64,000 nucleotides of DNA, taken from Myrmaecium sp. VS I D KN 1 (Eukaryota > Ascomycota > Dothideomycetes > Valsariales > Valsariaceae). Each line of letters opens with the position of its first letter. Positions within the stretch are counted from its first letter, which is position 1. Position numbers and translations under genes: made by a program. The stretch spans positions 618,448-682,447 of the forward strand of contig JADQAV010000003.1 of assembly GCA_019775845.1 (NCBI GenBank), written 5' to 3'. Under the pieces are notes generated by a model that did no database searches, was not told where the DNA came from, and was given only the letters and a program-made list of their open reading frames with translations. Positions 42,083 through 64,000 of this stretch are shown piece after piece.

Positions 42083-45000
42083 CTACCGATCCAACCCATC
42101 CAACTCCACCAACCGTCTCACGAGCCCCACAATCTCTCCCCCACCAGTAATACCCCCATCACCACCCTCCTCCCCCCTTGCCCCCTCGGCAAACCCCTCC
42201 GGATCCGCGACCCGCTCCCGCACCCACCGATCCAGCACCCCGCGCAACCGACTCGCCAGCACGCCCACGCGCGCCCACCCGCGCAGCCGCAACCACCCAT
42301 CCACCACGAGCCCGCGGCCCAGGGTGTCCACCTCCACGCCGCCGCCGGCGAAGAGCAGCACGGCGAAGGGGTTCACCGGCACGACGTCGCGGAGGTAGAC
42401 CTTCGCCGTCGTTGCCATCGTTGCCATCCCCCTCCCTGCCATCCCCCCCGCTCCCCGGGCAGCGCCGGAACTCCCCATCTTCCCAAAAAACGCTAAAAAG
42501 GCCGGGTGCGGTCCGACGAAGGTCTGGGCGCCGAAGAGGGTGGAGGAGGGGTGGACGAAGACGCGGCCGGCGTCCCGATCGAAAAAACGGATGGCCCGGG
42601 CTTCCGGGTCCAGGGCCATGGCCCCCGTGCTGGTGGCGGCGAATTTGGTGGCGGGCAAGGCGATGCGGGCGAGTTGAGGGCTGAGGGCGGCGGCGAGGAG
42701 GGCGCGGAGGAGGGGGAGGGGCGTGGTGTTTTCCGGGGAGGTTTCGGGCGAGGAGGACAGCGGCGCGAACCCGGCTTCTTGCAGGGCGGACAGGTACTGC
42801 GCCCGGTTCGACTCGACGTCCAGGAGGGTGTGGTGGCTGAGGAAGCGGGCCTCGCACCAGCGGCGCAGGTCCGCGGCCGTCGCGCCCTTGCGGCGGAGCG
42901 CGGCCCACTCGTCGAAGGCGCGGAGGTCGGCGAGCGGGTCCCCCTGGCTCGGGGAGCCGGCGAAGGCCATGCGGGCCGCCTTGGCCTCGTCGCGCTTCTC
43001 CCGCGGCGCCAGGAAGGGCGAGCGCACGCTGAGCAGGCTGGCCAGCGTCAGGCAGCTCGGGAGGCAGCCGAAGACGGCGCCGTAGACGAGCAGCTTGGCG
43101 CACCGCAGGTCCGCCGGGATCCCCGCCATGCACGTCCCCAGCGCCGTCAGCGCGTCGCCGTCCAGCACGCCCATCCGGCGGAGCAGGTCGAGCGCGTTGG
43201 CCACCGCGGCCGTGGCCGGCGGCGTGATGGTCGAGGCGAGGAAGCCGGCGACGTCGGCGACGCCCATGGCCTTCACGCTCAGGCAGAGGCCCTCCAGCGG
43301 CGTGCGACGGATCTCCGGCTCCGGTCGCTCGGGCATCTTCGTCTGCTCCGCGTTGCGCGTGTACAGCTTGTAGCAGAGCCCCTCGCGCACCCGGCCGGCG
43401 CGACCGCGACGCTGTTTGGCGGCCGCCCGGCTGGCCCAGACCTCCTCCAGCTTGACCATGTTGGCGGCCGGGTCGTAGGTGGTCTCCTTGACGCGGCCGG
43501 AGTCGATGACGGCGACGATGTCCGGGATCGTGATGGAGGTCTCGGCCACGTTGGTCGAGGCGATGACCTTGCGTGTGCCCGGCGGCGGAGGGGGGAAGAC
43601 CTTGCGTTGGTCGGTGGGGAGGAGGGAGGCGTGAAGGGGAAGGGCGTGCACCTGTGGTAGGGCGGCGCGAAGGGTCTGCGTCGACGATATCAGTATCCAA
43701 AATCAACATGAACGCGAAGGAAAAAGAAGCACTCACCCTCACACACCGGTCGATCTCCATCGTCCCCGGCAAAAACACCAGCACCGCCCCGTCCTTCTCC
43801 CCCAGTTCCCGATCGACTAACCGGACCGTCTCGACGATCAAGTCGTAATTGATGCCCATCCCCACGCTCCGCAACGCCTTGCCCATCCCCTCACCCTCCT
43901 CCTCTCCCTCTCCCTCCACCTTCTCCTCCACCACCGCCCTCACGCCACCAAACCCCGTCGACCGCACCACCTCATCCAGATAGAAATCCCGAACGGGGAA
44001 CGTGCGCCCTTCAATCTCGCACCGGCCCACGCCGCCCAGTCCCGCGAAGTAGCTCTCAAACACATCCGCATCCAACGTCGCGCTCATCAGGACGACCTTA
44101 AGCCCGCCCGGTTTCCTCCGCAGCACCTCCCGCAGCAGCGCGAGCAGGAAATCCCCATCCAAGCTGCGCTCGTGCACCTCGTCCACCACGACATGGCTCA
44201 CGCCCTCCAACTCCCCACCGCCACCCTGCAGCTGCCGCAGCAGCACCCCCGTCGTCACAAACCCGATCCGGGTGTCGGCACTCCACTTCCTCTCCCCCTT
44301 GATCGCGTACCCGACCTCCTGCCCAACGGCACCCACCCGCTCCGCCGCGACCCGCTCCGCCAACCCCATCGCGCTGATGCGCCGGGGCTGCGTGACCACG
44401 ACGTGCGCCGCGGCCCCCAGCCCCCGCGCCAGCAGATCGTCCACCACGAACTGCACCGCCTGCGTCGACTTGCCCGAGCCCGTCTCCCCGGACACGATGG
44501 TGACGGCGTGGTCCCGCACCGCGGCCACGATCCGCGCCCGCTGCGACCATGCCGGCAGCCGCTGGCGCGCCGCGAGCATGCGTTGGCCCGCCGGGCTGCG
44601 CATGCGCGCCTCGTGCTCCGCGTGCAGGCGCGTGCTCTCCGGGGACCAGGGGGTGGGGTCGAGCGGCCGGGCCGGGGGCCGGGAGGGCTTGTGTTTCCGC
44701 GTGCGCTGCGATCGCGTGGCGGTCGCTTCGGTGTCGTCGGCGGCGGCGCTGACGGCGGCGGCGATGCTGCTGAGCCGGCCCGGGTGCGCGATGATGCCGG
44801 GCGCTTCTTGCTCCAGCCAGTCGGCGAGGGCGAAGAGCATGGGGGTGTGTAGCAGGTCGGTTCGAGCGTGGAGGAGGGCGCGTTTGAGGAGGGCGAGGCG
44901 GATGTAGGAGGGGAGGGCGGCGTGGATGGAGAGGATGGGGAGGATGGCTGGGTAGGGCCCGTGAGGCTTGCGGGCGTGGAGGGTGATGGGAGGGGTGTTG

Positions 45001-46483
45001 GGGATGGAGAGGGTGAGGGAACAGGTGGTGGGGGAGTCGGAGTGGTATTTTTCGGCGCCGTAGATGGATTCGAGGACCGCTTGCTCTTCGGCCCAGGTGT
45101 CAGCATCTGGATCAGCGAGGGAGGCATCTTCCATTGCGGAGGAAAGGTCGTCGTCGTATTCGCCTTGAAGGAGGTGAGCCTGAAGGACGGCGGCTGCTTT
45201 GCCTTCGTCGCCGTCGTTGGCATCGAGCGCTTGCTCGCATAGCTCGACGGCGTATCCGGTTGCAGCGAGGCGCTTGATGGCGGCTTCGCGCTTCAGATCG
45301 CTGCTCGCCATGCTGATGCCAGCCACGTAGCCCTCTGGCAGCGCCCACGGCGGGAGGTCGTCCTCCGGCACGTGGATCAACAGCCACTCCAGCATCTCCT
45401 CCTTGTCCTTGCAAATGTCGGCCGCCTCCTCGACGTGGCTCCTCCGAAAGCCCAAGGCGGCGATCTCGTCGACCAGTCTTTTCTTCAGGCCGTCGGGGAT
45501 GCGTATCCCGTGCGGATTCCACAGTGCCTCTTTCCTGATCAACCGCTCCACCTCCACCCTGGTCCTCTTGCCCATGTCCACCTTCGGCGCGTTCGCCCAA
45601 CCCTTGTCTCTGCTCGCACCCGCACTGCCTCCCGGCCCTAATATGCTCGCACCATTCTGCGATTGTTGCTCCTTCGCCTTGGCCGCCTCCTCCCTCTTGT
45701 TCGCCGCAGCCGCCTTGGCCTTCTCGTGCTCCTCGAACGCGGCAAAGGGATCGGCCTCGTACATCCACCCGGCACCCTCCGCCACGGCCTCCTTCTTCAT
45801 CTCGGCGAACGGGCCCTTCCACAGATCCTTGTACGTCGGCGGCATCATCATGTGGATGTTCTTCATGTTGGCGACGCGGTACAGGGCGTAGGTGGCGGCG
45901 AAGTGACGGGCCTCGAGGGCGCTGGGCTGGGCGGCCAGGTCGCGGTACTTGGTCGGTACTTTCATGGGCGGGAGGGTAATCTTCTCACGCGTCTTGGGGT
46001 TGGTGGTGCGCAGGATGACGGCGGAGAGGAAGCCGGCGGGCGTGCGGTCCTGGATGGATGAGAGAAGGGATCTGCGTCAGCGCGGTGGTCATGAAGGCGG
46101 TGACGGCGGTTGCTGGAGGAGCGTCATACCATGGTGTATTCCGGCTTGTCCCACTTCTGCTTCTGACAGTGCTCCGACAGCATGTTCACCGGCAGTTTGC
46201 CCGTCCAGGACGCTCCGCCGATGAGAGTGCGCGTATCCGGCTTCTTGGGCTCGTCGGCAGCGGGCGGCGCGTCGGACTCCTTACCCTTGCCCTTCTTACT
46301 CTTGGTCTCTGGTTGGGCCTTTGCGGCCTCCTCGGCGGCCTTCTTCGCGCCGCCTTTGCCTTTCTTCGGCTCGCCCTTGGCGTTGGAGAAGACGATGTAG
46401 CTGGTGTCCTCGCCGTTGTGGGTGGGCGGCGGCTTCTTCGACGACGACGCGCCTCCACGGGGGCCATGCGGGTTCTTCCCCAT
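42083..46483 (-). CDS. DExH-box RNA helicase, YLR419W/DHX29-DHX57 type
   Basis: Exons are 46483-46130, 46049-43737 and 43675-42083; introns are 46129-46050 (GTATGA...CCAG) and 43736-43676 (GTGAGT...CGCAG). The protein is 1419 residues. The N-terminus is Lys/Ala-rich. A UBA-like stretch lies near 370-415 (KRLAATGYAVELCEQAL) and an RWD domain near 430-535 (EEQAVLESIYG). The helicase core has motif I GETGSGKS at about 639-646, TQPRR, motif II DEVH at about 741-744, SAT at about 774-776, STNVAETSITIPDI, and motif VI QRRGRAGR at about 977-984. HA2/ratchet and OB-fold regions follow. Human DHX29 and DHX57 and yeast YLR419W share this layout; ribosome-linked RNA remodelling is the likely role. The splices restore motif order (DRCVR|TLRAALPQ). 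Confidence 0.94.
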
Positions 46484-46782
46484 CGTCGCGGTGGCGGCAG
46501 CAGGGTGAACACGCTGCGAGGGGTGGGAGGAAAGAAAGGTGTTGGTTGAGGTGGAGAGTGTGATGTTCTGGTGTTCTGGAGTTCTTGGTGTTCCTGACTT
46601 GCAGGGAGATTCCCGCCGAAATCTTCGCCGTAGGGCTGACGGGAAAGGAGCTCAGGGCAGACGTCACTCTGTTTTACCTTCCCCGGATTTCAGGCACCCG
46701 CAGCTCCGCATCACATTCACTCACTCATTCATTCATTCACTCATCACAGCGCAATACGCCCAGTACATCTACCGCCGCCGCC
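46484..46782. promoter_or_regulatory. Compact divergent promoter, DExH helicase / HNT3
   Basis: 299 bp between divergent ATGs, so the two genes must share their promoter region. A CATTCA run (about 46715-46745) lies just before the HNT3 start. Confidence 0.6.
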
Positions 46783-47811
46783 ATGTCCGCCGATACTCAA
46801 GAGACAGAGACGGACGCCATCACCGGCGAGGAAATCACCGGCACCACGATCCCCGCCGACGACACCTCCGCATCCACCTCCGCACCGCGCCCATCAGAAG
46901 ATCCTCAAGCAACTCCGATGAGCACAACAAGCACAGCAGCAGGAGAAACAACAACTAATCGCCCCAATGCCTGTGAGCATTCACCCTTTCACTCACCAAG
47001 TACCGTTCACAAAAAACAACCCGCTAACCCTCCCGCTCTCCCATCCCAAGTCGATGCCCTCATGTCCCCCAAAAAGCCCAAACCAACCAGCAACACCGCC
47101 GTCAGCAAGAAATCCACGACGATCCCCTCCACCCCACACACCACCTTCCCCGGCCGCGACGGGCTCGGCGCCTACATCCACTCGCCCTCCTCCTTCCCCG
47201 CCTCCCGCGTCCTCTCCCACTCCCCCTCCTGGGTCCTCATCCGCGACCGCTACCCCAAATCCAGCGTGCACCTGCTCCTGCTCCCGCGGGACGCCACCCT
47301 CAGCCGCACCCACCCCCTCACCGCCCTGCAAACTAACCCCCAATTCCTCGCCGCCGCCCGCGCCGAAGCCGCCGTCGCCGTCCGCATCGCCGCCAGCGAA
47401 CTCCGCCGCCTCCACACCCGCACCAGCGCCGGCGACGCCGCTCGCACCGCCGCCATGGACGCCGGCGCCCCGGCCCCCTTACCCCCCGGCCGCGATTGGA
47501 CAAAGGATATCCGCGTCGGCGTCCACGCGGGACCCAGCATGGCCCACCTCCACATCCACGTCATCAGCTGCGATATGCACGCCCCCGCCCTCAAGCATCG
47601 GAAGCATTACAATTCGTTTTGCACCCCGTTTTTTGTGCGGTTGGAGGAGTTCCCGCTTCCTGAGGATGATCGGCGCATGGAGAGCGAGACGCGACGGGAG
47701 TTGTTGGCCCGCGATCTGCGGTGCTGGCGTTGTGGGAGGGCGTTTGGGGGGAGGTTTGCGGCGTTGAAGGAGCATTTGGAGGAGGAGTGGGAGGAGTGGC
47801 GGCGGGAGTAG
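46783..47811 (+). CDS. HNT3: Aprataxin-like HIT/zinc-finger protein HNT3
   Basis: Exons are 46783-46972 and 47051-47811, 316 residues. Aprataxin removes AMP from 5' ends left by abortive DNA ligation. The intron (46973-47050, GTGAGC...CCAAG, 78 bp) is a multiple of three, so the unspliced frame is also open; splicing joins RPNA to FDALMSPKKPKP, the usual start of the fungal HIT domain, which favours it. The HIT domain has the active-site triad HLHIHVIS (HxHxH), preceded by HAGPSMA. The C-terminus has a zinc site: CWRC then H in LKEHLEEEWEEW, the C2HE form seen in fungal aprataxins. The N-terminal 60 residues are Thr/Ser-rich and disordered. Confidence 0.9.
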   Translation: MSADTQETETDAITGEEITGTTIPADDTSASTSAPRPSEDPQATPMSTTSTAAGETTTNRPNACEHSPFHSPSTVHKKQPANPPALPSQVDALMSPKKPKPTSNTAVSKKSTTIPSTPHTTFPGRDGLGAYIHSPSSFPASRVLSHSPSWVLIRDRYPKSSVHLLLLPRDATLSRTHPLTALQTNPQFLAAARAEAAVAVRIAASELRRLHTRTSAGDAARTAAMDAGAPAPLPPGRDWTKDIRVGVHAGPSMAHLHIHVISCDMHAPALKHRKHYNSFCTPFFVRLEEFPLPEDDRRMESETRRELLARDLRCWRCGRAFGGRFAALKEHLEEEWEEWRRE

Positions 47812-50614
47812 GGTTGTTGGGAGGGAGGGAGGGGGTATGAGGTTGGGTTGGTTGAAGGGCAGGGAGGATGGTGGTGGTGTTTGGTTCAGATACCTTTTTT
47901 TTTCTCTCCTTCTTTCGTTGTTTGCCTGATATCCCTCCGCGCATCATCATATCATATTCAGAACGTGGAAGGAAAGGAAGTATGGAGTTTCGGAGGCGTT
48001 CAAAATCGGACCAGCCATTGCATGCTGCTTTTCGCCCCCGGAATTGACCCCCCCCCCCCTATTTACTCCGTACTTACGTAGTAATTATCTACCTCCTCTC
48101 CCCCCTTCTCGAGGAAAAAAGGGCGAAATCGAAAAACCAACGAAGTAGTAGAAGATGAAAGAAAGGTGAGCGTGCGACAAGCGACCACGACATCATTACC
48201 TCCCTTCACGAACCATTGCGTTGCCCGTGCGGTACGGTATGTCATCATCATCGTCATCGCCATTATCATCCATCGTTTCACCGCCGCACGGGTACTTGGA
48301 ACCTCTCTCCTGTCGGCGCATGGAGAACGAGCCCACCCGTGCCGGGCAAAGCTCACCGGCCGACCGAGCACGGACGGGAGCACTGAGCTTCTCGGACTTC
48401 GGCCATCGGACACCGAGCGAGCGGTGGGCAAAAATGGGGTCGGAGCAGTGGACGGCAATGGGAATCGGAAACAGGAAGAGGGATGATGAGAAGAGAGGGG
48501 GGAGATGCGAGAAGACGTGAGTAGCTAAGGTAGTCAGTATGAAAGGAGCGTGGTGTAGCAGCAGCAGCAGCAGCAGCATCAAGCTCCTTATCCCGCAGGA
48601 CTCTTTATCTACGAAGAAAAACGGTCAACGACGTTGTCGCCGATAACTGTCAGGCACAGGCACAGCTGAGTCGTTTCCAGGTTAGTGCTGACATCCACTC
48701 CCTCCCCCGGGTCCGCTGCATGCCGCTCACAATCTCCGTTCCCTGTCTGTCTGCAGTGCCTGCCTGCCTGTCGGCTATCGCCTATCCTTGCAATGTCTTG
48801 CCTGCCTGCAGTGCCTGCCTCTCGCGATGTAGCCAGAGAGAGGAAGAGAGGGAGAGGGAGGGAGAGAGAGGGACATGTTGTTCGCCCCTTCCCCCCCTAC
48901 TGTACTGTACTCTTCCCTTCTTCCTATCCTTCATCGTTACATACTGGACAGTACTGTACCGTATTTATGTACAGTATGTACACAATCGATGATGATGACA
49001 GACAAAGACATCTGAGCGCGTTCATGCGCGCCCTGGCCCGTTGCTGGCCCCCGTTCCGTGAGCGTGCGGACATGCATGACTCGGGTACGGGCGGGTATCG
49101 GATACGACGTGGTGTTTATGCGAATACTATCTCGCCGCGCAATGCCTTTGGAGAAAAAGTGATCCTTCACTGTGTATGTATACGAGGCGTTACGAACGAA
49201 CGGACGAATGTACGAGTACGACCGCATGCCCTCTATACGAGTAGGAGTACATGTAAACGAGTACCTGATCTTTACAAAGAAACAGAAGGGGGATATCCCG
49301 GTAATCTATCGATCGGCCATCCATCCATCCATCCATCCACCATACCCGAAACGACCCCTTCCAGCCGGCGGCCGCACTGCCAACCAATCATACCCCTCAA
49401 TTCCCATCCCATCCCGTCCTTCCATTCTCCACCCCATCCCGTCCCCCGCCAGCCGGGGGGGCTAAATTTATCTCTAAAATCCGGTTCTGCAAGCAAAAGA
49501 TGTCCATGCTTTCTTTTCTTTTCCTATCGACTGAACGAGGCTATTCCTGCTTCGTTTTCGTTACCGGCTTCGGCACCACGGCAATGGCTGTGGCGGACGA
49601 AGAAAAGAGTGAAAAGAGGGAAAAAGAACGTGAAGAAGAGGAGAAAAATACTTACCGGGTGGCTGGTGAGCCGGTCGATTTTTTTTTTTGAAAGGTGAAA
49701 AGAAAAAAATACCATGGAGTTTGACAGTTGCCCGGTCCGCGTCTCAATGGATCGGCTGATGTGCGAATCCTCCTAATTTACTTACCTCTTTTCTGTGTGC
49801 CTTCCTGTGGTTCACTAACCGCCCGTCACTTTTGGGGTCTCTTCTTCTTCTCCCTCCCGCACTCGCATTCGCACTCGCTCTGCTTTTCCTACCGAAGATC
49901 GATTCCACCCTATCTCCTCTTCCCGATCCTCTCTCCTCTCTCCTCCCGTTCCTCCTTTTCCTCCACCTCCACCTCCTCCTCTTCCTCCTCCCGCATATTC
50001 TTCCGCCGTGCATACTTTGGCATAGAGAAGGCTCCGGTCCTTCCTCACCGCTCGCTTTTGAGAGATCGATCGTCTATCCACCCTCCACACTCGCTCGCTC
50101 GCTCGCCGTCCCGTCTTTTGCGGTTCGTGTCCGTCACATTCGTCATCCATCATTCTTATCGCGCGTCCTGTCCTGTCCTGTCCGCATCGCGCTCCTCCGG
50201 CCCATCCGCTTTTCCTGACGCAACTGCAACGAACGAGTTTTCGCTCGTCGCGGCCGTGATCCACCACACCCGCTTTTTTTTGTTGGTCGCTGCCGCTGCT
50301 CCATTCGCCCCCCGTCGCTCGCGGACACCGCCGCAACGTAGAATACCTACCTGCATTGCATACCGACCGACCGACCTACTGTACATCATCGAGTCTTTTA
50401 CTGTTGGAAAAGGAAGACGTGAAAGGGATCACCTGCGGTTGTCTCTTTTCCTCCATACCCTCTCTCTCGCACCGTACCGCATCGTCAACGCCGGTTTCGT
50501 TACTCGGCGGACTCACATTCTTCCTGCCTGATCCCGTCCACCACGAGAAGGCCCTCCACGCATACCGATAGGCATCTCTCCACACGAGCCGACAAACAGA
50601 AAACCTCACCAACC
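47812..50614. other. 2.8-kb intergenic region; no gene seen
   Basis: HNT3 3' flank on the left, long C/T-rich leader of the first small membrane-protein gene on the right (pyrimidine-rich at 49835-50000). CAG repeats lie at about 48557-48577, ATCC repeats at about 49320-49340, and GTACTGTAC/GTACAGTATGTA motifs near 48898-48980. A 337-codon plus-strand frame at 48685-49698 begins at CTG and is full of simple sequence. Confidence 0.6.
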
Positions 50615-51112
50615 ATGCCGTCACCACGCCTCATCTCCCGCGCCCTCGACCTCGACCTCTCCTCCTCCTTCTCCTCCAACCCCAGCTCCACCATCCACCA
50701 TCTCCACAAACGCGACGTCCTCTCCCACCAAGCCGTCATCGTCATCGTCATCCTGGCCATGGGCTTCGGCCTGCTCTGCGCCTACGCCTGCTTCCGCTTC
50801 TTCTTCCAAGGCGACAGCAGCAACAGCGAGTCGGCCAACTCCTCCGTGCGGCCCTTCGAGCGCCCCACCGACGACCAGGGCGCTTACATGCGCTCCGTCC
50901 GTCGCCAGACGTGGAAGGGCATGGGCATCGAGGCTGCTGTCGCGGGTCGCCAGGAGCGCATGATCCATGGTGCGCGCCCGAGTAATGGTGGTGGGCCGGA
51001 GATGCGCAATGTGGTTGCGTATCCCCCGCCGGTGGCGACGGCGCCGGATGGCGCGGCTCCGGTGAAGGGGGGTGTGAGTGTGGCGACGACGTCGGCGGGG
51101 AGTGAGTATTGA
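50615..51112 (+). CDS. Small single-pass membrane protein A (YMRxV family)
   Basis: 165 residues, one exon, ATG at 50615. A short polar N-terminus (Ser/Asp/Leu) ends in HKRDVLSHQ. One hydrophobic helix spans about 39-60 (VIVIVILAMGFGLLCAYACF), followed by RFFFQ, then an acidic linker and the signature GAYMRSVRRQTW at 89-100. The rest is Gly/Pro/Ala-rich and ends GSEY. The Arg residues after the helix suggest the C-terminal side is cytosolic. There is no enzyme motif. Two relatives lie at 52311-53054 and 56128-56595. Function unknown; small proteins with this helix plus YMRxVR arrangement exist in other Pezizomycotina as conserved hypotheticals, as far as I recall. Confidence 0.8.
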   Translation: MPSPRLISRALDLDLSSSFSSNPSSTIHHLHKRDVLSHQAVIVIVILAMGFGLLCAYACFRFFFQGDSSNSESANSSVRPFERPTDDQGAYMRSVRRQTWKGMGIEAAVAGRQERMIHGARPSNGGGPEMRNVVAYPPPVATAPDGAAPVKGGVSVATTSAGSEY

Positions 51113-52310
51113 GGGGGATGTTCGCAATTTTTTTTCCCCATCATTTGTCTTTTGCACGTTCGCATTTTGGGGTAGAAAGAAGAGGGTAGAGGGTAGAAGG
51201 TAGAAAGAAAAACGGTTGGGTAGTAGATGGAGAGACGTTGGGGCGAGATGCGGGGTTAAAATGAAGTGGAAGCGGGTTCTTCTTTTGGAAAGGACGGAAT
51301 GGAGGACGAATTTGGAAGGATCGTGGAAGAAAAGAGGAGGATGCATTTTTTGTTTACTTTCCTTGTTTGCTTTACGGAGGGGACTGATTGGATTGGATCC
51401 CCCTCACCACCATCACCACCATCACCATCGTCCTCCTCCTGATCATTGTTGGCATCACTGGCATCGTTGGCATCTGCATATCCTCACCTCCTTCCTTCCT
51501 TCCTTCCGTGTACAAAACTGTACAGTACACCTCCCCCTTCCTTCACTTTGCCGCTCATCATATATTTTTCTTTTTCGATTATTTCTTGTTTCTTCAGTTG
51601 CTTTGGGATCTGTACGGTACGGCAAGGTACCGTACGGTACGGTACGGGACGCACACGCTTGGACACATACACACTTTTTGACATACGCCACCGTGACGAG
51701 TTAGGACGGGATGGCATGGTATAGGATAGGATGGGACGGGGATATACATACATATCTATATATACATATACACATACAGATCTATCATAGAAGCTTTCAC
51801 ATGCGTGAGTATGGGGTGGGGTGTGGGGTGTGGGGGGTGAGGTACCTTATGGAATGCGGGGAAGGAAGGACGGTGACACGCTTGACCTGTTCCTGACCCG
51901 ACACCCTACCGTGGCGGGTACCTGCATTCTGTGTTCTGATGTACCTGTCCCGTACCGTGACGGGGACGGGGAAGGGGTGAACCTTGCCTCGGCAGGCGGC
52001 AGGCCGCAGGTGACAAGCGGGTATGTAAGGCGAGCGATTTCGTCGATTGGTACCTGATTGAAGAAGTATCCAAGTATGTGGATTCTCAGCTCGTGGTGAA
52101 GTGGTGTTGTTCTTGCTACTCTCCTTACATCCCGAAAAAAAAAAAAAAAGAGAAAACATATAAGCAGAAGGAAACCGTTAGATAATACAAAGGAAATTCG
52201 AAATCGTAGGGAACGTCAAAGCCATCGCACCGAATCCAAAAGCCTCAAGCCTCAAGCTTCAAGCCAAAAAGAAGAAATCTAAAAACCCCACCGAATGCCC
52301 TTTCCACCCC
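51113..52310. other. Convergent 3' flanks of membrane-protein genes A and B
   Basis: 1.2 kb, no gene. CACCAT runs lie at 51405-51435. GTACGGTAC (51612-51620) and GTACCGTAC (51627-51635) form a 9-bp stem with a 6-base loop within a GTACG-rich patch. A run of A lies at 52137-52149. Confidence 0.6.
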
Positions 52311-53054
52311 TCATCCCCTCACAAACGGATTCCGACTCCTCCGCTTCTCCTCTTCCTCCTCCCCCGGCACACCAGCACCACCAATCTCCCCCTCCTCCGC
52401 CACCACCGCCTTCTCAAACACCTCCCCCTCCTTCAGCCCACCCGCCATCCGCGGCGCCGGCGCCGGCATCGCCACCGGCGGCGGCGGCGACGGCATTTGC
52501 ATCGGTGGCGGCGGCGGAGGCGCATAGCCCGAATACGCACTCGGACTCCCCGGCACCGGCGGGGGCGCATATCCACCGCGTCCATACCCATACCCATACC
52601 CATACTCATTGTACGCCCCCGCCTCCTCCCCAACAGCTTCCTCCGCATACGGCCTACGCCACGCCCTCGGACTCGGACTCCCCCCCACCAGCCCCCGACT
52701 CCCCGTCCGCGTCCGCTCACTCCCCCTGCGACTCCACTCCGGCGTCACGGGCGTCACGGGCGCGCCAGCCACACTACTCCCCCCACCACCACCCGTCGTG
52801 GAGGCGTCCCAGGCCATCAACCCGCGGGCCTCCGCGCTCAACCGCTCGACGTTGCGCCGCTTGACCTCGCGCATGTAGGCGAACTGGGGGTGGGCGAATT
52901 TCCCCCCTTCGATCGGGATCAGGTCCGGTCGGTCGTTGACGCCCCGGTCGTTCCAGTGCGCGGACGAGGAGCGGTAGATCCCGTACGCGCACAGCAGCAG
53001 GAACCCGGCGGCCACGATGACGATCAGGATCACGGCGGGGCGGGAGATGGACAT
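52311..53054 (-). CDS. Small single-pass membrane protein B (YMRxV family)
   Basis: 247 residues, one exon, ATG at 53054, TGA at 52313-52311. The hydrophobic helix is close to the N-terminus (7-27, VILIVIVAAGFLLLCAYGIY) with no extra leader. The signature FAYMREVKRRNVERL is at 58-72. After it come Gly/Ser/Thr-rich sequence, an YGYGYGYGRGGY stretch at 151-162, a proline-rich part (PPPVPG, then runs of P at 179-193) and an acidic-basic end, EEEEEKRRSRNPF. It lacks the KRD segment and the SEY end of A and C and is the most divergent of the three. The proline-rich tail could bind SH3 or WW domains (inference). Function unknown. Confidence 0.77.
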   Translation of the reverse strand: MSISRPAVILIVIVAAGFLLLCAYGIYRSSSAHWNDRGVNDRPDLIPIEGGKFAHPQFAYMREVKRRNVERLSAEARGLMAWDASTTGGGGGSSVAGAPVTPVTPEWSRRGSERTRTGSRGLVGGSPSPRAWRRPYAEEAVGEEAGAYNEYGYGYGYGRGGYAPPPVPGSPSAYSGYAPPPPPPMQMPSPPPPVAMPAPAPRMAGGLKEGEVFEKAVVAEEGEIGGAGVPGEEEEEKRRSRNPFVRG

Positions 53055-54423
53055 TCTTCTTTTTTGTTTTGCGGTGTTGTTTGGGTTTGGTGGTTTTGTT
53101 GGTTTGTTGGTTCGTTGGTTTGTTCGTTTGTTCGGTGCGTTCCGCTCCAGTCCAGTCCAAGCCCTTCGTCCTAAACCAAAGTACACCACCTTCTCTCTCT
53201 CCTTCTCGTCAAACAAACACTTTCCTTTCCAACCCTTTCTAATAACCCCCCTCTTCTTCTTTTCTTCACCCCGTCACAAAATAACGTTCCCGGGGTATCT
53301 CCGATCGATCGATCGATCAATGCCCCGGAATGACGACCAGGGGGTGAGGAAGGCTTGCTGTGGTGTCGGATCGCGATGCGGAAGCGAAGCCGATGCGGAG
53401 GCGGAGGCGGAAGCAAGATCCGGATATGCGGTTGTTAAGCGACGCCGTGTGCTCGAAGGCGCCGTGTGGATGTAAATATCCTTCTCGTCTCGAGGATAGG
53501 GAATTTGTTTGGGTAGTGATGAGATGTGTATGTATGTATGTCCGCCGCGCGCGCGTTTGGTAGTTTTGGCTGTGGGAGGGCGTTTTATGTGTAGGCTGTA
53601 TTGCGTGGATAATGATGATGATGCGATCGGTGTGGGTGGTTGTATGTAATGCCGATGAGGCTGCGAGGCTGCAAGGCTGACCGCCGGTGGAATGCGCGAG
53701 AAAGAGCTCCCGCCCGGGTTGGGTCGGGTGGTCGGCAAGACCTAGGTAGGAGAGAAGCGGAAAAAAGCAAGGAAGGGAAGGGGTGCGCCGTGCGTGGTCG
53801 TGGTCGTTGGTGATTGGGTGGGTGGATGGGTGTGGAGTGATAGGGAGTGAGTGAATGAGGTGCGGGTGTGTCTATCGCGGTGGTATGGGTGTGGATAACG
53901 ATAGACTGATGATAGTGATAAGAATGTTTCTCTCAAAGGATGAGAATGAACGAGAGTCGCGGAAGAGAGAAGGAGGGATAAAGAGAGAAGAGAGTGAGAG
54001 AGAGGAAAGAAAAGAGGGAGGGGGGAGAAGAAGAAGATTTTCATCATCCGGATGGCCGGCTGCGCCCGGAGAGAGAGGCTTTTACCTCCTCCTGTCTTCG
54101 TATATCGAACTTGCTGGAGACTCTCTCTCTCTCTGAATGAAGCCAGGCTGGCCAGGCTGGCCTGGTGGGCTGGCTGCTACTGGGCTGCGGCTGGCCTTGC
54201 ACCTTGGTTAGTGCCCGCCCGGCTGCCCTGGGGAGGGGGTGGGTGGCATGCGGCATGCGTGGACACGGCGTGTGTGTGGTGCGTGTTCGTAAGGGCGTGA
54301 GTGGGTTGTGAGTGGGTTCGGCGTATCTGATTGGTCGGTTCACTGCGTTTGATCGGCTCTGTTTGGTCCGATTCGCTGCTCCCTCTTTCTTTTCTCCAAA
54401 AAGCTGACGATGCCCACCCCCNN

Positions 54424-54456
<33 letters not shown>

Positions 54457-56127
54457 CCAAGCCATCGTCCTTGTAGTTTACTACAGAGGAGAGCGGACTC
54501 GTTCGGCATCAGCAGGATTTTTTTGGGCGTCCCGGCTGTTTTTTTCTCTTTCTGCTGCGTGGCTGAGGGCGCTGACGACTTGTTTCACTTCACGGACTCG
54601 TCACGGCATTCGTCGCGGATGTTGGGATGGGATCCATGGCCCAGGTAGGTACCGTTGGTTAGTAGGCAGGAGATTCCGGTGCATCCGGAGGGAGGGTGAC
54701 ATGTGATGAGTCTTTTCTTTGTTTCGCTCTCTCTCTTTTTTAAAGTCTATCTTTCTCTCAAGAGACGGGAGGATGATGGATCGATGGTTCAAAAGAAATG
54801 AGAGGATATACATACAGTAGACAGAAGAGCGTGATAGTTGGGGATGGTTCTTTAGCGATCGCGAGTATCCGAAAGCACCAAGAGCCCCCGAGATCCCATC
54901 ACCATGGCAGTCCATTGAACTCAACAAAGCCGTACACCTACATTATATCTCGCATCGCAACCCATCAAAAGGCGGAGCAGACAGTGAACTCTCGAATCCC
55001 CCTCCCTCCGGCAAAGAACTGCCGTGAACTGCAGACGGGATGGACAAAAAGGGCTGAACGGAACGATCGAACGGAACGGAGCAGAGCACCAGATTCCGAG
55101 GACCCCTGCTGAGACAAAGGATGGAAGGGCGTGGAGTGGGGCCAAGGCCAGGACCCTTCCACGCTCTCCACGATCTCTCGAGGGGGAAACGCAGCAACAA
55201 CGCACGGGGATACGCGGCCTTGCCAGGCTGTGACTGTGACTTGTGACTGTGAACTGCTGCGCCTCCACGAACCATCCATCCATCCTTTCATCCTCACGTT
55301 TCAAGCTCCGCACGTCATCATCAACAACAATATCATCATCATCATCAACAACATCAATAATAACATCATCACCAGCAAGCTCATCAGAACAACAACCCGA
55401 CGCATCACATCGTCAACAGAATCCATGGAAAGAAACGAAACACCATTCCCTCGAATAAAAAGCAGAAAAGACACCTTCAGGCTACACCCCGCCAAAGTAC
55501 TGTCCTTCGAACCGGAAACCATCCGTTCGGCTTCCGCCCGCGCCCGCGCCCGCGTCCGACCGCGCACACGCACGCGCCACGCGTGCAACCACCGTACGTC
55601 CCCCGCCAGCGAAAAAGAGGCTTACGTCATCGTTGTTCGTATTCCACAGCCGCTCATGGTTTTCGCTTCGACCCGATGAAAGATGTGACGAAGACGAGGA
55701 TGGATGTATATATTCAGTTCACTGCTCTTCCGAAGCCCTAGGTATGTGTGCTACGATTGAACCCTTTGTGCGTGCGGATCGATAGATGGGGAAGAGAGTT
55801 GGAAGAGGGAACTTTACGTCTCCCTCTCTCCATGCTTGAAAAGGAGAAGGATAGGTGTATGTATCCCGGAAAAGGTCAAGAAAAGAGGAGAATCATATAA
55901 GAAGAAAGAAAAACATATGAAACCCCTCCTCTCCTGTTCTCTCTCCCCCCTCTGTGGGAAACAGCAGAGAAAACACGAAGAAACCCCGCCACCCCCGCTC
56001 GTTGTCTTACTCCAAGATGGAAGAAAAACCCCCAAAAACCACCACGTGCATCCATCCATCCATCCAAAAATATCACCAGCGTCAAAAAAAATACCAAACC
56101 TCCCCAACTCACCCACTCAAATCAAAA
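53055..56127. other. 3-kb intergenic region; no gene seen
   Basis: Upstream side of gene B and 3' flank of gene C. GATC repeats lie at about 53301-53318, a purine-rich stretch at 53930-54040, and a run of C with two N at 54417-54451. ATC/AAC trinucleotides lie near 55315-55380. No believable protein. Confidence 0.6.
54417..54451. repeat. Poly-C run containing two undetermined bases
   Basis: Run of C interrupted only by NN at 54422-54423. This is an unresolved homopolymer or a joined gap, so true length here is unknown. Confidence 0.95.
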
Positions 56128-56595
56128 TCAATAATACTCACTCTCCCCCTCCTCCGTCCACCCATCATCCACCACAGACGCCTGTCCCACCCCACCCTTC
56201 GCCCCCACCGCACCCGCACCCCCAACCCCCTTCCCCTTCCCCCCCGTAACCGCATACCCCAACGGCGTGCCCCCCTTCCCCATCACATCCGCATAACTGG
56301 CGCCGCCGGTGCCGCCGGGCCCCCTTCTCCCTCCGATCCCCATCGCCCCCCGCCGCATATCCATCACGTTCCGCGCCCGCACCGCGCGCATGTACGCCCC
56401 TTGCTCCTCCTGCGCGTCCCGCGAGATCTCCTGCGGGGCCCCGTTGCCTTTGCCCGCGGGCAAGAAGCGGAAGATGGCGTAGGCGCACAGCAGCCCGAAG
56501 CCGGCGCCCAGGATGCAGAGGAGGATGACGACGTTGGCGGAGAGGGCGTCGCGTTTGGTGAGGGGGTGGTGGAGGGTTGGTGTTGTGGGCGCCAT
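56128..56595 (-). CDS. Small single-pass membrane protein C (YMRxV family)
   Basis: 155 residues, one exon, ATG at 56595. The N-terminus TKRDALSANVV aligns with HKRDVLSHQAV of gene A. One helix spans about 21-43 (VVILLCILGAGFGLLCAYA), followed by IFRFLP. The signature QGAYMRAVRARNVMDM lies at 65-80. A Gly-rich tail follows and ends ESEYY, close to GSEY of A. A run of about 22 A lies directly before the ATG on the coding strand. Same-strand gene B is 3.1 kb downstream. No enzyme motif, function unknown. Confidence 0.8.
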   Translation of the reverse strand: MAPTTPTLHHPLTKRDALSANVVILLCILGAGFGLLCAYAIFRFLPAGKGNGAPQEISRDAQEEQGAYMRAVRARNVMDMRRGAMGIGGRRGPGGTGGASYADVMGKGGTPLGYAVTGGKGKGVGGAGAVGAKGGVGQASVVDDGWTEEGESEYY

Positions 56596-56597
56596 GG

Positions 56598-56619
56598 TTT
56601 TTTTTTTTTTTTTTTTTTT
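56598..56619. repeat. Poly-T run next to the start codon of membrane protein C
   Basis: About 22 T on plus, ending two bases before the CAT that is the start codon on minus. In the mRNA this would be an A-tract leader. Confidence 0.85.
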
Positions 56620-56696
56620 GTGGAGGGAGATTTTTTTGAGGGGTTTGTTGGGCGGTTGGTGGTTTGGGTGGGTTGGGTTGGATGGATCCTGTGGTT

Positions 56697-56723
56697 TGTG
56701 TGTGTGTGTGTGTGTGTGTGTGT
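56697..56723. repeat. GT dinucleotide microsatellite
   Basis: About 13 GT units in the presumed 5' leader of gene C. Confidence 0.9.
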
Positions 56724-59123
56724 AGGTAAGTACAGCGCAGCGGCGAAGGTTTTAGCCGGTGCGTTCGTCGTTGTCGTCGTAGTCTGCGTCGTCCCGGTGG
56801 TGGTAGTAGTGGTAGTAGCGAGGTCGAAAGAGCAACGTCGACGTGCGCGTGCTGTTGCGTCGTTCTCGTTCTGCGCGATGAAGATGAGAAGGATGGATAT
56901 CGAGCGATAACGATGTCGATATCGATGTCGGGACGGGTAGTTGAGATAATACGATGGGTATCATGCGAATAATGATGAGAATGGATCGTGGTGTATGCAA
57001 GACCCCGTGCCCCCCTCCAAGACGAGTATGCGATGAGCGTGGGATGATGAAGGGATGCGGATCGTGCGCGAGCGCCTAGGGCTTCCTGTTCGCGGTGTTG
57101 GATGGCGACGACGTTGATGATGATTATGCGCTTCGCGCGCAAAACGGCTTTTCGTTCGTAGCGGTTGTTCACTGGGTGGTTCTTGTGGTGTTTTGCGAAC
57201 GTGGACCGGTTGTCGACGGACGGAAAATCAGGCAGCGATGTATATGTGGTGTCAGTGGTATACCGATATCCGTATCGTTCCGGCGCCGCGCGATCCGTGA
57301 TGGTCCGTCCGATTCCGTGGCAAGAATATGCCGATATTAGGATGTCCGACCGACCGACTGACTGACTGACCGACGAGCGAAAGACTTTCTCGCTCGGTTC
57401 GGAGAGATACTGTAAGTAAGATGGGGTGGTGGGTGGTAGGTTCGGAGGGCAAAAGGTGTCCGACGGCGCGTGAAGAGTGCGGAGAAGAAGGACCGGGTTG
57501 CGCAACAGTTCCTCGGGGAATCCAAGCAAGGGAGGAAGGTAGGAGGGAGGAAGGCGGCTAGGCTGTTCGGTGGCGAATGGGGAGGGAGAAGTACCAGGGA
57601 GAGAGAGACGGAGGAAGTAAGACGCACGAGAGAGAAAAGAAAGAGGAGAGGAGAACGAGAGAAGAGGGAGCGAGAGAGATGCGGTGTGATTTTCCAGCAA
57701 GCCAACGTACCAACAGCAAACGAGAAAAACGCGTGGGACGAGGGGGGATGCCGGGGAAGGGCTTTTAACTTATAAAGAGAGGTAAGGTATGTATGCGTCC
57801 CAGCCGGGGCAGCCAAGTACGAGTGGTTAGTTCAGATTATCTAGTCGGTTTTAGCCATGACCTACCTTGCTACCTTACCCTCCCTGTACCTGACCTACTA
57901 CCTACCACCCTATACCATACCATACTCTGTCACGTTAGAGAGTTATCATCTCGGAAAAAGCTGGGAAGGATGGATGGGTAGGGTGGGTGGAAGGAGTATC
58001 TGTCCAACCAAACCTGCATCCTCACCCCCTCCTTCTCCTTCTCCTCCTTCTCTCTCTCAGCCCCCCAGCCCAAGGGTCAGCCCGTCCGCCAGCCTGCCAG
58101 CCCGCCAGCCAGTCAGCCAGTCAGCCCAGTCAGCCATCCAGCGCCAACATCAGCGCATCAAGCGTGGATGAAGGAAGGAGGGACGGGTGAAGGGCATCAG
58201 TGGCCGGGGGCTGGCTGCGTCTGTTGCCCAGAACGGTTTAGCGAGGGGCAGGGCAAAAGAAACCTAGAAGGGTTTGTTCGTCTACGGCACGTGATTTTGA
58301 CGAGGAGAGAGAGGTGGAGGGGACTTCGGAGTTGCGCTTTGGCGGGGCGGATGGGAGCGGACTTGTCCACTGGTTCCAGTAGTTTGGTTTGGGCATTGTA
58401 CGATATTCACTCCGTACGATAAGGAACTGCCTTCTCTCTGCATGTACCGGCGGATGTATGTATATGAGTACAAACAAAGTGCAAACAGTGCGCGGACGGT
58501 GAAACCAGATCACCAACTGCCCGTGGGCCCCACGACGAAAGTTCGGCCGATCGATCTCCCTCACGCTTTTCCTTAGTGCAACGTTATCCGACCGTGAACG
58601 AACCGCCCTGCTGGATGATGGAAAGTCCTTCTGTCGTTGGTACTGTACTTACGGATATTTACCCTTGGATATATACGCGCGATGCTGGCCTTGACAGTAC
58701 CTATATAAAATCACATATTCGAATGATCGCTTTTATATACGTAAGGATGTACTATGCGCTGCGGACGATATCTTCCATCCATCCCAACCTATCCCACCTC
58801 CCCCGCAATCAAAGGGAGCGGGACCCGCGCGTGTGGTCGCCAAGCACCATGCGCTCCTACAGCAAACATCCCATCCATTCATCCATTCATTCATCATCAT
58901 CATTATCACCAACGGAAAACCTTTCTCCATCTCATAACTCAAATACTTACCACCACGATCCTGCAATCTCCGCAAACGAGCGCCGAGAAGGAGAGAAGAA
59001 GAGAGGAAGAAAGAAGGGAAAAGATCTATAAAAAGTATAACTAACGATCCCGCGGATCCACATCAGCATCCGTCTCCAGCAGCCCCGCTCGAGAGAGACA
59101 AACGTGGCCCTGTGCGTGAGCGT

Positions 59124-59169
59124 CACGTGATATAAACGAGCGTAGATTGTCACGTGAGCTAGACGAGCG
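59124..59169. promoter_or_regulatory. Two direct copies of CACGTGA-N5-ACGAGCG
   Basis: Copies at 59124-59142 and 59151-59169, 27 bp apart. Each has an E-box-like CACGTG, 5 differing bases, then an identical ACGAGCG. The spacing and identity suggest a regulatory pair or a tandem duplication; no gene is close. Confidence 0.5.
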
Positions 59170-59191
59170 TCTCGGCGTCAGCGTGGATTAG

Positions 59192-59426
59192 CACGCGGTT
59201 GACAAAATAACGCGACCACCAAATCAGAATCCTCTCTATATTCACGAAGAGACCTTATTATAAAACGCAACGAAAGACCTTTAGAATCTAGAGAAAATAG
59301 GTTAAATTAATATAATAGCCTCTCCTATCTCTATTAATGATTTTTTCTGATTTTCATTCATTATATAGGGCCAGTATTTTTATATCGCCGGTTAATGTAC
59401 GGTCGCGTTATTTTGTCGACCGCGTG
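59192..59426. mobile_element. MITE, 235 bp, 26-bp TIRs and ATTAG duplication
   Basis: Terminal inverted repeats at 59192-59217 and 59401-59426 match at 25 of 26 bases; ends begin CACGCGGT and the inner end is ACAAAATAACGCGACC. ATTAG is present directly on both sides (59187-59191 and 59427-59431), a 5-bp target-site duplication. The 183-bp interior is strongly A+T-rich, unlike the surroundings, and has no coding capacity. It is a non-autonomous DNA element; a pogo/Fot-like origin would predict a TA duplication, which does not fit as well, so the superfamily is left open. Confidence 0.87.
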
Positions 59427-61546
59427 ATTAGTCATTGATGGGGGTTGGTGAAAATGAAAAGAGGTGCTTTAAGAAGATACTGTACTTATGGAATGCATAA
59501 TGATACCTGAATAAAGTACTGCTCAATCTTCTTCCTGAGTAATGCAAAGGATTTATGTGTTATGGTGACTCTTGTTTCTCCCCTCTTTTTTTCTCCTTTT
59601 CTCTCCTTCTTCCCTTCCTTCCTTCCGTCTTTCTTTCTTTCTAGAGATCGTCTTTCGGAACCATATCTCGTCTGTGTATAAATCAGAATGGTCACAACCG
59701 TCTCTCCCCCTACACGAAGGGTAAAACAGCATGTGCACGCTTTTCCTTCTTCGTTTCCTTCTTCTCCCCTCCTCCTTCGTTGCGATAGAGAGAATGATCC
59801 AGACGTAAACGATTTCTTCCAGGCATATGTATTCATACATAGTATCCACCAGTCTCTAACCCGTTCGCCGGGCCTCCTTTCCTTCCTCTTGTGCACCGAG
59901 ATCTCTGGCCCTGGAGACTTGACAGGGTCAACACTTTCACCCAGCAGATACGGCAGCCACGCGTATGGACCGAAACATAGATCCCCTCGCGCAGTCCGGA
60001 GCAGGTGTGCGAACATCATCAGGCACGTCTGTACCGAGGTCTGACGCTGGTAGCCCTCGTGGCGATTCGATTGCAGTCGCGATCGTTTTGCATTCTCCAA
60101 GACAGCGCAACCGCATGGACGTGATCCAGAGACGATGTACGTGGGATGATGTACTGCCGTATGTTGCGGCGAGAATCTCATCTCGTGTCCCGGAGTATAC
60201 ACATACGTTGGAATGGATGTACACGCTCTACTTGCCGAGAGCGTCCGTAAACCGTCGGAAAGCCGTAGGACGATCAGAAGAGGTTTACTTTCAATACTTC
60301 GGGTGCAGAGGACGTTGTTCGTTACGTTGCTTCGTCCTGACTGTCAAGGAGCTTGTGATTACAAGGGGATCTGGTTTTATCGTATCATCACGCCCCTTAG
60401 GTACTCTTCTTGAAGGGTGAAATAAGATGCGGCTCAACACGCCATAGGGTCGTTACTAGCTCGTCTTCGCTGTGGAGGACTAGTTTTCGAGGATTATGTT
60501 TATGCCTCATGGTGAGTAGATGCTGTTTTCTCGTTGAAGGGTCACTTTAGGAATGGTTTCTACCGTCTTCTACATATACAGGTCATAACCACGAACATCC
60601 CCATCCTTGCAGCCTCACTCCCCTCCCCAAGCGTCCTCCCCGGAGTGTCGGGAAAAGGCCGAGAGGGAGGCACGGAGGGTCTCCCTCCCCGCAGCCAAGC
60701 GCGGCGCTAAAGGATGCGTGGATGCTTGATTGTGATGCTTGGCATTACCTATTCACCCGATCCTGCGAGCCTGCGATGCAACGTTACGGCACGCCATAGA
60801 GAAGGAGGAAAGAGAAAAATTGTTGGAGAAGATCCTTCGGCTGGGCCCGATTCCGTGGCACTCACACACAGCCGCCGTGATGTGCATTCAGTATCTCTCT
60901 CTTCCCCCTGAAGAACCGTTCTCTGAGCGCAGCCAGATGGAAGATCCGCTGGCTACTGTAGATACCTACCACCTCGTTTGCCCGCCTGGACCAAGTGGAG
61001 ATGGGAAAACGCTCGCCGTAGAAGACGAGCAATCTCGGATGGCGGAACCAGCCGATAAATCAATCAGGAAAACTGAGACGTGCCCACGTCCGTCTTTCCC
61101 CGTTCCGTTCTGCGCGGGGCAAAGCACGCCATCGCCATCCGTGAGAAAGACGTGCGGCCAGGGTTGGAAGACATCATCGCGGTTTTTCCTTCTTTCTTTC
61201 ATACTCCATTAAGATTTCACTCCTCTCAGTACCGGTACTGTACCTATTCCTCACGTCTTCTTCCGTGCTTCTGGAAAACTTGGAAGAGTCCTAAGAACTT
61301 CTATTCTCTTCCCTCTTCCCTCTCCCCTGCCTCTCTCTTCTTCTCTCTCCTGTTCGTCTCTCTTGAGTGTATCTTCCTTGCTTGATGCTGATGTAATCGA
61401 AGTGATTTGCATTGGAAGAAGAGTCGAATCCAAGCGACGGAATATTGACCATCATCCACGGAACCACCCCTCGACTCGCCATCGCCTTGTGTCTCGGGTA
61501 TACGCACTCAACCACCTTCGCAAAGCATTCGGGACTCGAATGATAC

Positions 61547-63308
61547 ATGGCCCGCCACCAAGATGATATCGAGATTCAAGCCACCAAGGGCTCCACCAAC
61601 TCCGCCGACGCCCCCGAAATCCACGCCGATGAGATCGCCCACGTGCAGGGCGACCGCCTCGCCCGCAAGCTCTCCGCCCGCCAGGTACAGATGATTGCCA
61701 TCGGTGGCACCATCGGCACCGGCCTCTTCCTCGGCACCGGCAAGTCCCTCGCCACGGGCGGGCCGGCGTCAATGCTGATCGCCTACGCCGTCGTCGGCGC
61801 CATCGTCTTCGTGACCATGCTCTGCCTGGGCGAGATGGCCGCCTTCATGCCCATCGCCGGCTCCTTCTGCACCTACGCCGGCCGCTTCGTCGACGACGCC
61901 TTGGGCTTCGCCCTCACCTGGAACTACTGGTTCAACGACGCCGTCTCCACCGCGGCCGACATCATCGCCCTCCAGCTCCTGCTCCAGTTCTGGACCGACC
62001 ACTTCCCCGGCTGGGCCATCAGCCTGATCTTCCTCCTCGTCGTTATTGGCCTCAATCTCTTCTCCGTCCGCGTCTACGGCGAGGTAAGCGCTCCTTTCGC
62101 TCCTGAAGCACTCCTCGCTCTCCCTCCTCCTTCTCACTCATCTCCTTCAGGTCGAATACTGGCTCTCTCTCCTCAAAGTCATCACCATCGTCATCTTCAT
62201 CATCCTCGGTATCGCCGTCAACTGCGGCGGCAACACCACCCACACCTACATCGGCGGCCACAACTGGCACATCGGCGACGCCCCCTTCGTCGGCGGCATC
62301 GGAGGCTTCGCCAGCGTCTTCGTGACCGCCTCCTTCGCCTACGGCGGGACCGAGTCGATCGCCGTGACCGCCGGCGAGACTAAGAACCCGACCAAGAACC
62401 TCCCCCGCGTCGTCCGCAACGTCTTCTGGCGCATCCTGCTCTTCTACATCCTCTCCATCCTCATCCTCGGCCTCAACGTGCCCTACACCTACCCCAACCT
62501 CTCCGCCAAGTCGACCGCGACCTCCCCCTTCACCATCGTCTTCGCCCAGGCCGGCTCCCACGTCGCCGGCTCTTTCATCAACGCCGTGATCATGACCAGC
62601 GTCATCAGCGCCGCCAACCACGCCCTCTTCGCCGGCTCCCGCCTGCTCTACACCCTCGCCGTCGACGGGCACGCCCCGGCCGTCTTCGGCTTGCTGAACC
62701 GCTTCCGCATCCCCTGGGTGGCGGTGCTCGCCACCAGCCTCGTCTCCGGCCTCTGCTTCGGCGCCTCCTACATCGGCGCCGGCCAGCTCTGGACCTGGCT
62801 CCAGAACCTCGTCGGCGTCAGCAACCAGCTCAGCTGGATCTGCATCAGCCTGGCCAGCCTGCGCTTCCGCGCCGCCGTCCGCGCCCAGGGCCTCGAGCAC
62901 CGCCTCCCCTTCCGCAACTGGACCTACCCCCTCGGCCCCGTCCTCGCCGTCGGTCTCAACGTCGTCCTCGTCCTCGTGCAGGGATGGAGCTGCTTCAGCC
63001 CGTCCTTTCAGGCCGTCGATTTCGTCAGCTATTACCTGGAGATCCCCGTCATGCTCGTCATGTTCCTCGGCTGGAAGATCGTTCGTCGGACTCGGTTCGT
63101 CCGGCTGGTGGATATGGACCTCCTCACCGACCGCTATGATCAGGGAGGCCAAGGGTGGGAGCGGTCGGATAAGGTCGAGGGAGAGGAGGATGGCGGTCAG
63201 CAGGTGCCGCTGAGGGTTGCTGGCGACCCTGCACTTGTCATGAAGCAGGTCGAACGGAATCCATGGGTGAAGCGGCTTAGGCGGGTGGGGGAGTGGCTGT
63301 TTCTCTAA
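61547..63308 (+). CDS. Amino-acid permease, basic amino-acid (Lyp1/Can1-like) type
   Basis: Exons are 61547-62083 and 62151-63308 (intron 62084-62150, GTAAGC...CTTCAG); 564 residues. It belongs to the fungal APC/YAT family of plasma-membrane proton symporters. After a 40-residue hydrophilic N-terminus comes KLSARQVQMIAIGGTIGTGL, the family's helix 1 signature. About 12 hydrophobic segments follow, with SFAYGGTESIAVTAGETKNP in helix 6 and its loop. Closest by eye are Lyp1/Can1/Alp1-type carriers (VPYTYPNLSAKSTATSPFTI), suggesting lysine/arginine uptake. This is from family resemblance only. The C-terminus is charged and ends WLFL. Alpha-arrestins such as the one at 9.2-10.7 kb control endocytosis of this family in yeast, but a link here is not shown. 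Confidence 0.93.
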
Positions 63309-64000
63309 GGGAATTGGTGGGCTCTGGGTTTAATTCTAGATCTTCCAAGGATACCTACCGTGTGCAACGGAATTTATTTCTCCGTTTCAGTCAGACTCCT
63401 TTCAATTCTCCCCATCTCGTCACTAGATGCGTGTTCGGCGACGTGCTCGATTGAAAGATAAGAGGATAAATAGCACGGGAAACGAGCGAGATTTTATCTC
63501 TCATAGGTCCCGTCAACTCGGACCTAGCACCCCTCTAACATCCCAGCGAGCCGTACGTATCTTTCTGTTCAGCCGGCATGCGGCCTCGCAATAAACCGAT
63601 CTCAGAAGCCTTTAAATACCCTCGAGGCTCCTGAACTTTCTCTCTCCCCAGCCCGCCCTCATATCCCTCTTCCTATACTCGATCCATGTCGCCTTAACAT
63701 GATATTAACGAAATCTCATCCTCTCGTCCTCGTTTGAACCACCTCGCTTGAACGTTGGCTTCTGCACGTCCACCTCGCGCTTCGTTTCTCCGCCTTGGTA
63801 AGCACCCGCGATGATCTTTGATATACTGTCTGTATAGCCAGCATGTTGTTCATCTAAGGCAGCGCGGACGAAGGGGGGTAGGTGTGGGTTCGAGGTACGA
63901 TGTCCTCCCTCTGATAAGCCGGTTTCAGTTCGTATAGCATCCGAGGGGCAAACGAGTCTTGCGATCCCACCCACCCAGCCTATACAACGCGTCCCCCCCC
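63309..64000. other. Permease 3' flank; right window edge
   Basis: C/T-rich stretch at 63540-63690 with a TTTAAATA motif near 63611. Apart from the possible exon listed next, no gene seen. Confidence 0.5.
63705..64000 (-). CDS. Possible terminal exon of a gene entering from the right
   Basis: The minus frame ending with a stop at 63707-63705 stays open to the window edge but has no ATG, only a GTG, so if coding it must be a last exon. The last half looks protein-like: ISKIIAGAYQGGETKREV, then DVQKPTFKRGGSNEDER. I do not recognise the family. The first half (around CPSDAIRTETG) is less convincing and might be intron. Confidence 0.3.
   Translation of the reverse strand, partial: GGTRCIGWVGGIARLVCPSDAIRTETGLSEGGHRTSNPHLPPFVRAALDEQHAGYTDSISKIIAGAYQGGETKREVDVQKPTFKRGGSNEDERMRFR

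Follow-up and report, generated by a model that had tools for sequence, protein, structure and literature searches.

Three homologous genes for single-helix membrane proteins, possibly adaptors, clustered in the fungus Myrmaecium sp.

Background

Yeast Pmp1 and Pmp2, about 40 aa long, are small single-pass regulators of the plasma-membrane H+-ATPase, and Pfam includes models for Pmp1/2 as well as for Wsc/Mid2 and Opy2, fungal sensors and adaptors that cross the membrane once and have a disordered tail. The three proteins described here, which we call A, B and C, resemble Pmp1/Pmp2 as small, paralogous fungal membrane proteins in which one membrane helix is followed by a basic stretch, but they are far longer (165 aa in A, 247 in B and 155 in C) and have a linker, a separate signature motif and a low-complexity tail. 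With Wsc/Mid2 and Opy2 they share the single pass and the disordered tail; however, the helix begins at residue 37 in A, 19 in C and 4 in B, and with only 3–36 residues ahead of it, they have no long ectodomain of the kind that precedes the helix in those proteins.

Genes of unicellular fungi have been described as carrying GC skew of opposite sign at their two ends, 5' and 3', with an effect on amino acids (McLean and Tirosh 2011, PMC3315797). Skew of this kind accounts for the C-rich heads and G-rich tails of genes A, B and C and for some of the composition of their tails; it is, however, a matter of composition and not of a protein family, and it leaves the helix-plus-signature homology and the high proline of the A and B tails unexplained.

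Results

The window analysed, 64,000 nucleotides whose last base is the end of the contig (C21), has gene content of fungal type—ten scanned ORFs include a Chs7 chitin synthase export chaperone and an LDB19-type arrestin, and the window also encodes UreD, cohesin STAG, CorA, a DHX29-like helicase, a HIT protein and an amino-acid permease. By coding signal, the 13.7 kb between the end of the HIT-domain gene (47,811) and the start of the permease gene (61,544) hold only gene A (50,615–51,112, plus strand), gene B (52,311–53,054, minus strand) and gene C (56,128–56,595, minus strand), each defined by its ORF and codon signal and taken as a single exon. All three have an A at position −3 before the start codon; the start given for B is the first ATG, and its frame stays open further 5'. 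In a scan of log-odds codon usage trained on nine stretches from other genes, a method that may overlook tiny exons, A, B and C were the sole stretches scoring above the cut-off of 20 in 47,811–61,544, save one antisense stretch that overlaps the tail of B (52,384–52,515, plus strand, score 25.3). The three ORFs proposed by an earlier, sequence-only reading of this DNA all carry coding signal, and its claim that no genes lie between them holds at this cut-off, bar the antisense stretch. Codon signal, pairwise BLASTP and shuffle tests together rule out chance ORFs. Intervals of about 3.1 kb and 5 kb flank C, and a poly-C run at 54,417–54,451 contains two unresolved bases (N at 54,422–54,423), possibly marking an assembly gap or a sequencing difficulty. 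Visual inspection of the final 300 bases of the window (63,701–64,000) revealed no telomere repeat, no Rfam family reached its gathering score in 46,000–64,000, and a tRNA search of the window under a bacterial setting found none.

Pairwise BLASTP, with E values for single comparisons, aligned A with C at 64.7 bits (E 1e-18, 35/72 identical), C with B at 44.3 bits (E 1e-10, 30/78 identical) and A with B at 42.0 bits (E 9e-10, 29/78 identical). One outcome that the sequence-only reading had named beforehand as counting against it was a lack of alignment above chance outside the hydrophobic helix; over the 60 residues past the helix, the alignment is above chance, the observed score being reached in 1 of 2000 shuffles for A-C, 7 of 2000 for A-B and 3 of 2000 for C-B. 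When the entire post-helix sequence is used, these counts become 15, 235 and 15 of 2000, respectively, so that the tails add noise and A-B is no longer significant; past the conserved heads, the three proteins can be aligned only with many gaps.

We also searched the organism's own 25.66 Mb genome with tblastn, which returned at least three matches for A, at least three for the head of B (85 aa) and at least four for C, self-matches included. These were A, B and C themselves and one weak match to C on another contig (C64, E 0.035), which was dropped as a fourth member, the matched stretch having neither a hydrophobic helix nor the signature. Searched as a DNA pattern, GFxLLCAY matched the genome three times, always within A, B or C, against one match for the reversed-pattern control. 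The signature AYMRxV[RK] (first Arg as CGN) likewise matched three times; since its reversed control also gave three, the count by itself is not above chance, but the fall of all three matches within A, B and C is. A stricter form of the signature pattern matched B and C only, with one control match. Homology across A, B and C in both helix and signature, as read from sequence, makes them one gene family, of which these searches of the 25.66 Mb genome detected no further member.

Three homologues within 6 kb, genome searches that detected no others, and orientations of +, − and − make tandem duplication with inversion the natural reading, as had been proposed. The age of the duplication was approached through codon differences. 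On the aligned heads, NG86 gave dN/dS of 0.44/0.52 for A-C, 0.70/0.61 for A-B and 0.62/0.49 for C-B, which at face value means no purifying selection, although the estimates are unreliable here because codon bias is extreme. At identical residues, A-C show 9 codon differences (of 36), where saturation predicts 10.9 or 12.9 under biased usage taken from strongly biased window genes or from the A/B/C heads themselves; A-B show 11 (9.7 or 10.8 expected) and C-B show 10 (8.4 or 9.0 expected). Under average codon usage, A-C would look younger (17.9 differences expected against 9 seen, P 0.0012), but with the more biased usage sets P becomes 0.28 and 0.08, and a recent A-C duplication was rejected. 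With equally biased codon usage assumed, the duplication is probably old. Upstream regions of the three genes share only short blastn matches (best E 0.009), and the regions downstream of A and C share one match of 31 bases (84%, E 0.003).

The three proteins have a common unit—one hydrophobic helix with GFxLLCAY followed by R, then a linker, and lastly QxAYMRxV[RK] in a helix predicted at low confidence—of which the helix, its end and the signature are present in every member. Placed from the CAY motif, the hydrophobic helix spans residues 37–60 in A (MGFGLLCAY; 50,723–50,794, plus strand), 4–27 in B (AGFLLLCAY; 52,974–53,045, minus strand) and 19–42 in C (AGFGLLCAY; 56,470–56,541, minus strand). 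The single predicted transmembrane helix per protein, as first read, agrees with hydrophobicity in all three and with AlphaFold in A (helix 38–65) and B (helix 5–36). Its motif had been written as [AG]GFxLLCAY, of which GFxLLCAY stands throughout but the first position does not, A having M before GF. The signature shared by A, B and C was read correctly: AYMRSVR at residues 90–96 of A (50,882–50,902, plus strand; AlphaFold helix 86–111), AYMREVK at 59–65 of B (52,860–52,880, minus strand; AlphaFold helix 56–82) and AYMRAVR at 67–73 of C (56,377–56,397, minus strand; by sequence pattern).

Eleven of 24 helix positions are invariant, against a maximum of 4 in 20,000 shuffles, a count favoured by the alignment of the segments on the CAY motif and drawn from three sequences, which are few for conservation calls; 4 of the 12 positions in the first half and 7 of the 12 in the second are invariant. 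The AlphaFold models of A and B, built from three-row alignments, have low overall scores (pTM 0.22 and 0.20, mean pLDDT 54.9 and 55.5, respectively), with a confident membrane-helix core in A (mean pLDDT 91 and 89 across residues 41–60) and block values of 86–96 for residues 1–30 of B. The signature helix is of low confidence (block pLDDT 52–60 in A and 59–73 in B, residues 51–80), and most of the remainder falls below 50–60, except for a proline-rich stretch of B (residues 181–200; block pLDDT 86 and 79), which is modelled with no helix or strand.

The spacing from CAY to AYMR is 32 residues in A, 27 in C and 34 in B, so it is not fixed and the signature is not juxtamembrane, contrary to what had been claimed. 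Nor do the flank charges fix on which side of the membrane the signature lies or establish the cytosolic face proposed for it: charges on the N- and C-flanks are +1/−1 in A, +1/+1 in C and 0/0 in B. A lipid-binding, amphipathic signature was considered and found unsupported, the hydrophobic moment of the 18-residue signature window being reached by 55% (A), 88% (C) and 31% (B) of 5000 shuffles. By raw moment, the highest 18-mers of the whole protein overlap the start of the signature in A and C.

Beyond the heads, whose ends we picked at residue 110 in A, 85 in B and 90 in C, the proteins continue into tails recognised by composition and codon usage: a low-complexity tail in A (residues 111–165; 50,945–51,109, plus strand) with codons mostly not ending in C, a proline-rich tail in B (residues 86–247; 52,314–52,799, minus strand) and a glycine-rich tail in C (residues 91–155; 56,131–56,325, minus strand). 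The C-terminus of B reads RNPFVRG (52,314–52,334) and contains, within the proline-rich tail, the triplet NPF (residues 242–244), which we take to be a possible EH-domain ligand. Among codons for F, Y, H, N, D, C and I, 71 of 73 end in C in the heads and 2 of 28 in the tails; the extreme bias of the heads suggests high expression. The shift in the tails, which in B spans about 160 codons, looked like that of non-coding sequence, an interpretation set aside on finding the same tendency in unrelated genes.

Ten ORFs of the window served as controls (for example, 15,648–17,036 and 42,083–43,702, minus strand, and 46,795–47,811, plus strand), with 3' ends predicted from sequence. In nine of the ten, the arrestin being the exception, coding-strand GC skew was positive over the last 30 codons. 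C-ending codons in these 30 numbered 2/10 in STAG, 0/3 in UreD, 0/5 in DHX, 1/5 in HIT, 1/3 in the permease, 5/10 in CCCH, 1/1 in CorA, 1/1 in an F-box-like gene, 6/8 in MYND and 6/6 in the arrestin (23/52 pooled), which places A, B and C within the gene-end trend, although the shift in their tails is stronger than in the controls. The combined fraction of G, R, E and V is 0.40, 0.46 and 0.52 in the tails of A, B and C; in the controls it is 0.46 over the last 60 codons and 0.256 in the remainder. Proline, on the other hand, makes up 16.7% of the tail of B and 12.7% of that of A against 4.3% in controls. On the preferred reading, most of the tail sequence is of low complexity, changes fast and has a composition that tracks gene-end GC skew; given that skew in unrelated genes, tail composition, and perhaps the SEY ending discussed below, needs no functional reading.

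A Pfam-A hmmscan of A, B and C at E values up to 10 gave nothing above cut-off and listed two sub-threshold families (TraL_transposon for A, 12.6 bits; Oleosin for B, 13.9 bits; none for C), a listing that is incomplete because HMMER filters discard most matches above E of about 0.1; it included no Pmp1/Pmp2-type model and no Wsc/Mid2 or Opy2 model for any of the three. NCBIfam listed one family, none above cut-off, and a sequence-profile search of the PDB gave no match at E up to 1. Pattern matches numbered 46 in a viral contig set and 94 in a set of prokaryotic genome contigs, none confirmed as a relative; a plasmid set, searched with C as query, gave no match, and peptide strings from these proteins did not occur in the paper text searched. 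Although they match no catalogued family searched, the proteins look more like an ordinary, uncharacterised fungal family than a novel type of system. Proteins like them may well be among the unnamed entries of fungal proteomes.

Discussion

What the shared unit does can be read in several ways. The proteins are small, they carry a basic signature, and their most conserved run sits within the membrane helix, all of which would suit small regulatory subunits of a membrane transporter or ATPase that act mainly through that helix, as Pmp1/Pmp2 do; lengths of 155–247 aa, far above those of Pmp1/2, Pfam results comprising two sub-threshold families, and a signature kept 27–34 residues from the helix motif, which such a role leaves unexplained, make this unlikely. 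Similarly improbable is an arrangement in which the C-terminal part is extracellular or lumenal, the helix serving as a signal-anchor (in B perhaps a cleaved signal) that delivers the tails to the lumen of the secretory pathway or to the cell wall. The hydrophobic stretch of B does start at about residue 4, KR precedes the helix in A and C, and a single N-glycosylation sequon occurs in A (NSS at 75); on the other hand, the stretch is long for a cleaved signal, C and B are without a sequon, every cysteine lies in the helix and none in the tails, and the basic signature favours the cytosol under the positive-inside rule, by which basic segments favour that side.

Two further explanations turn on the tails. 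The conserved head might be a mere targeting signal—a membrane anchor and a basic segment—with the tails giving the three proteins different jobs, as the need for many gaps beyond the head could suggest; we consider this doubtful, more so than either role above, as an anchor would not usually hold 11 of 24 helix residues identical, and much of the tail composition fits gene-end skew and need not be functional. The other concerns the gene ends. A and C had been credited with a shared SEY C-terminus, and both have SEY, although C terminates in SEYY. That this ending is a read-through 5' splice site (AGTGAGTAT), the true genes running on into a further exon, strikes us as highly improbable, even with GTGAG no more than four codons from the stop in all three ORFs, GTGAGTAT present three times in the window and two of these at the genes in question, GTRAG at the ORF end in no more than 4 of the 155 ORFs in the window that begin with ATG and reach 80 aa, and a possible acceptor 190 bases 3' of the site in C. 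The nearest branch-like site 3' of A is 282 bases off, the best translated match between the regions 3' of A and C scores 40 against a shuffle mean of 40.2 (20 shuffles), and the codons AGT GAG TAT are less unusual near gene ends (P 0.031 vs 0.0047 elsewhere; 27 S and 8 Y codons). By these three tests, a splice donor at SEY is unsupported.

We tentatively prefer to see A, B and C as a tandem family of old origin whose members cross the membrane once and serve as adaptors, with the helix end and the signature docking a partner, a reading that is quite possible. The working unit of the family would be the hydrophobic helix, a linker that spaces AYMR 27–34 residues from CAY, and the short helix that carries QxAYMRxV[RK]. 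In the membrane, the hydrophobic helix would pack its second half against a partner membrane protein—the conserved helix Cys could alternatively be lipid-modified—and the signature, on a flexible cytosolic tether, would dock a partner protein, so that the family would consist of membrane-bound adaptors. A binding site had earlier been argued from a fixed distance between helix and signature, a premise that fails; the conservation of the helix (11/24 overall, 7/12 in its second half) together with the predicted signature helix makes the better argument for binding. Across the three sequences, the GFxLLCAY-R half of the helix is conserved more strongly than simple anchoring would demand. The signature-window moment, no higher than in shuffles, leans towards protein docking over membrane binding, although the start of the signature may have a membrane-facing role in A and C, where the highest-moment 18-mers lie. 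The proline-rich tail of B, with its NPF, is the likeliest functional tail and may, as a lead only, link B to endocytic or actin-patch proteins.

Conclusions

A bolder and less likely proposal is that these genes represent an undescribed fungal adaptor family kept as a three-gene cluster, in which the helix end and a QxAYMRxV[RK] docking helix would recruit a common partner, and the tails, above all the proline-rich NPF tail of B, would route that partner to different places. In genomes of this kind, gene-end GC skew should be considered before function is assigned to low-complexity tails or to shared C-terminal residues. If the signature is a docking site, it would open an unannotated fungal membrane family to experiment through a bait peptide of about 20 residues and one gene cluster removable by a single deletion.
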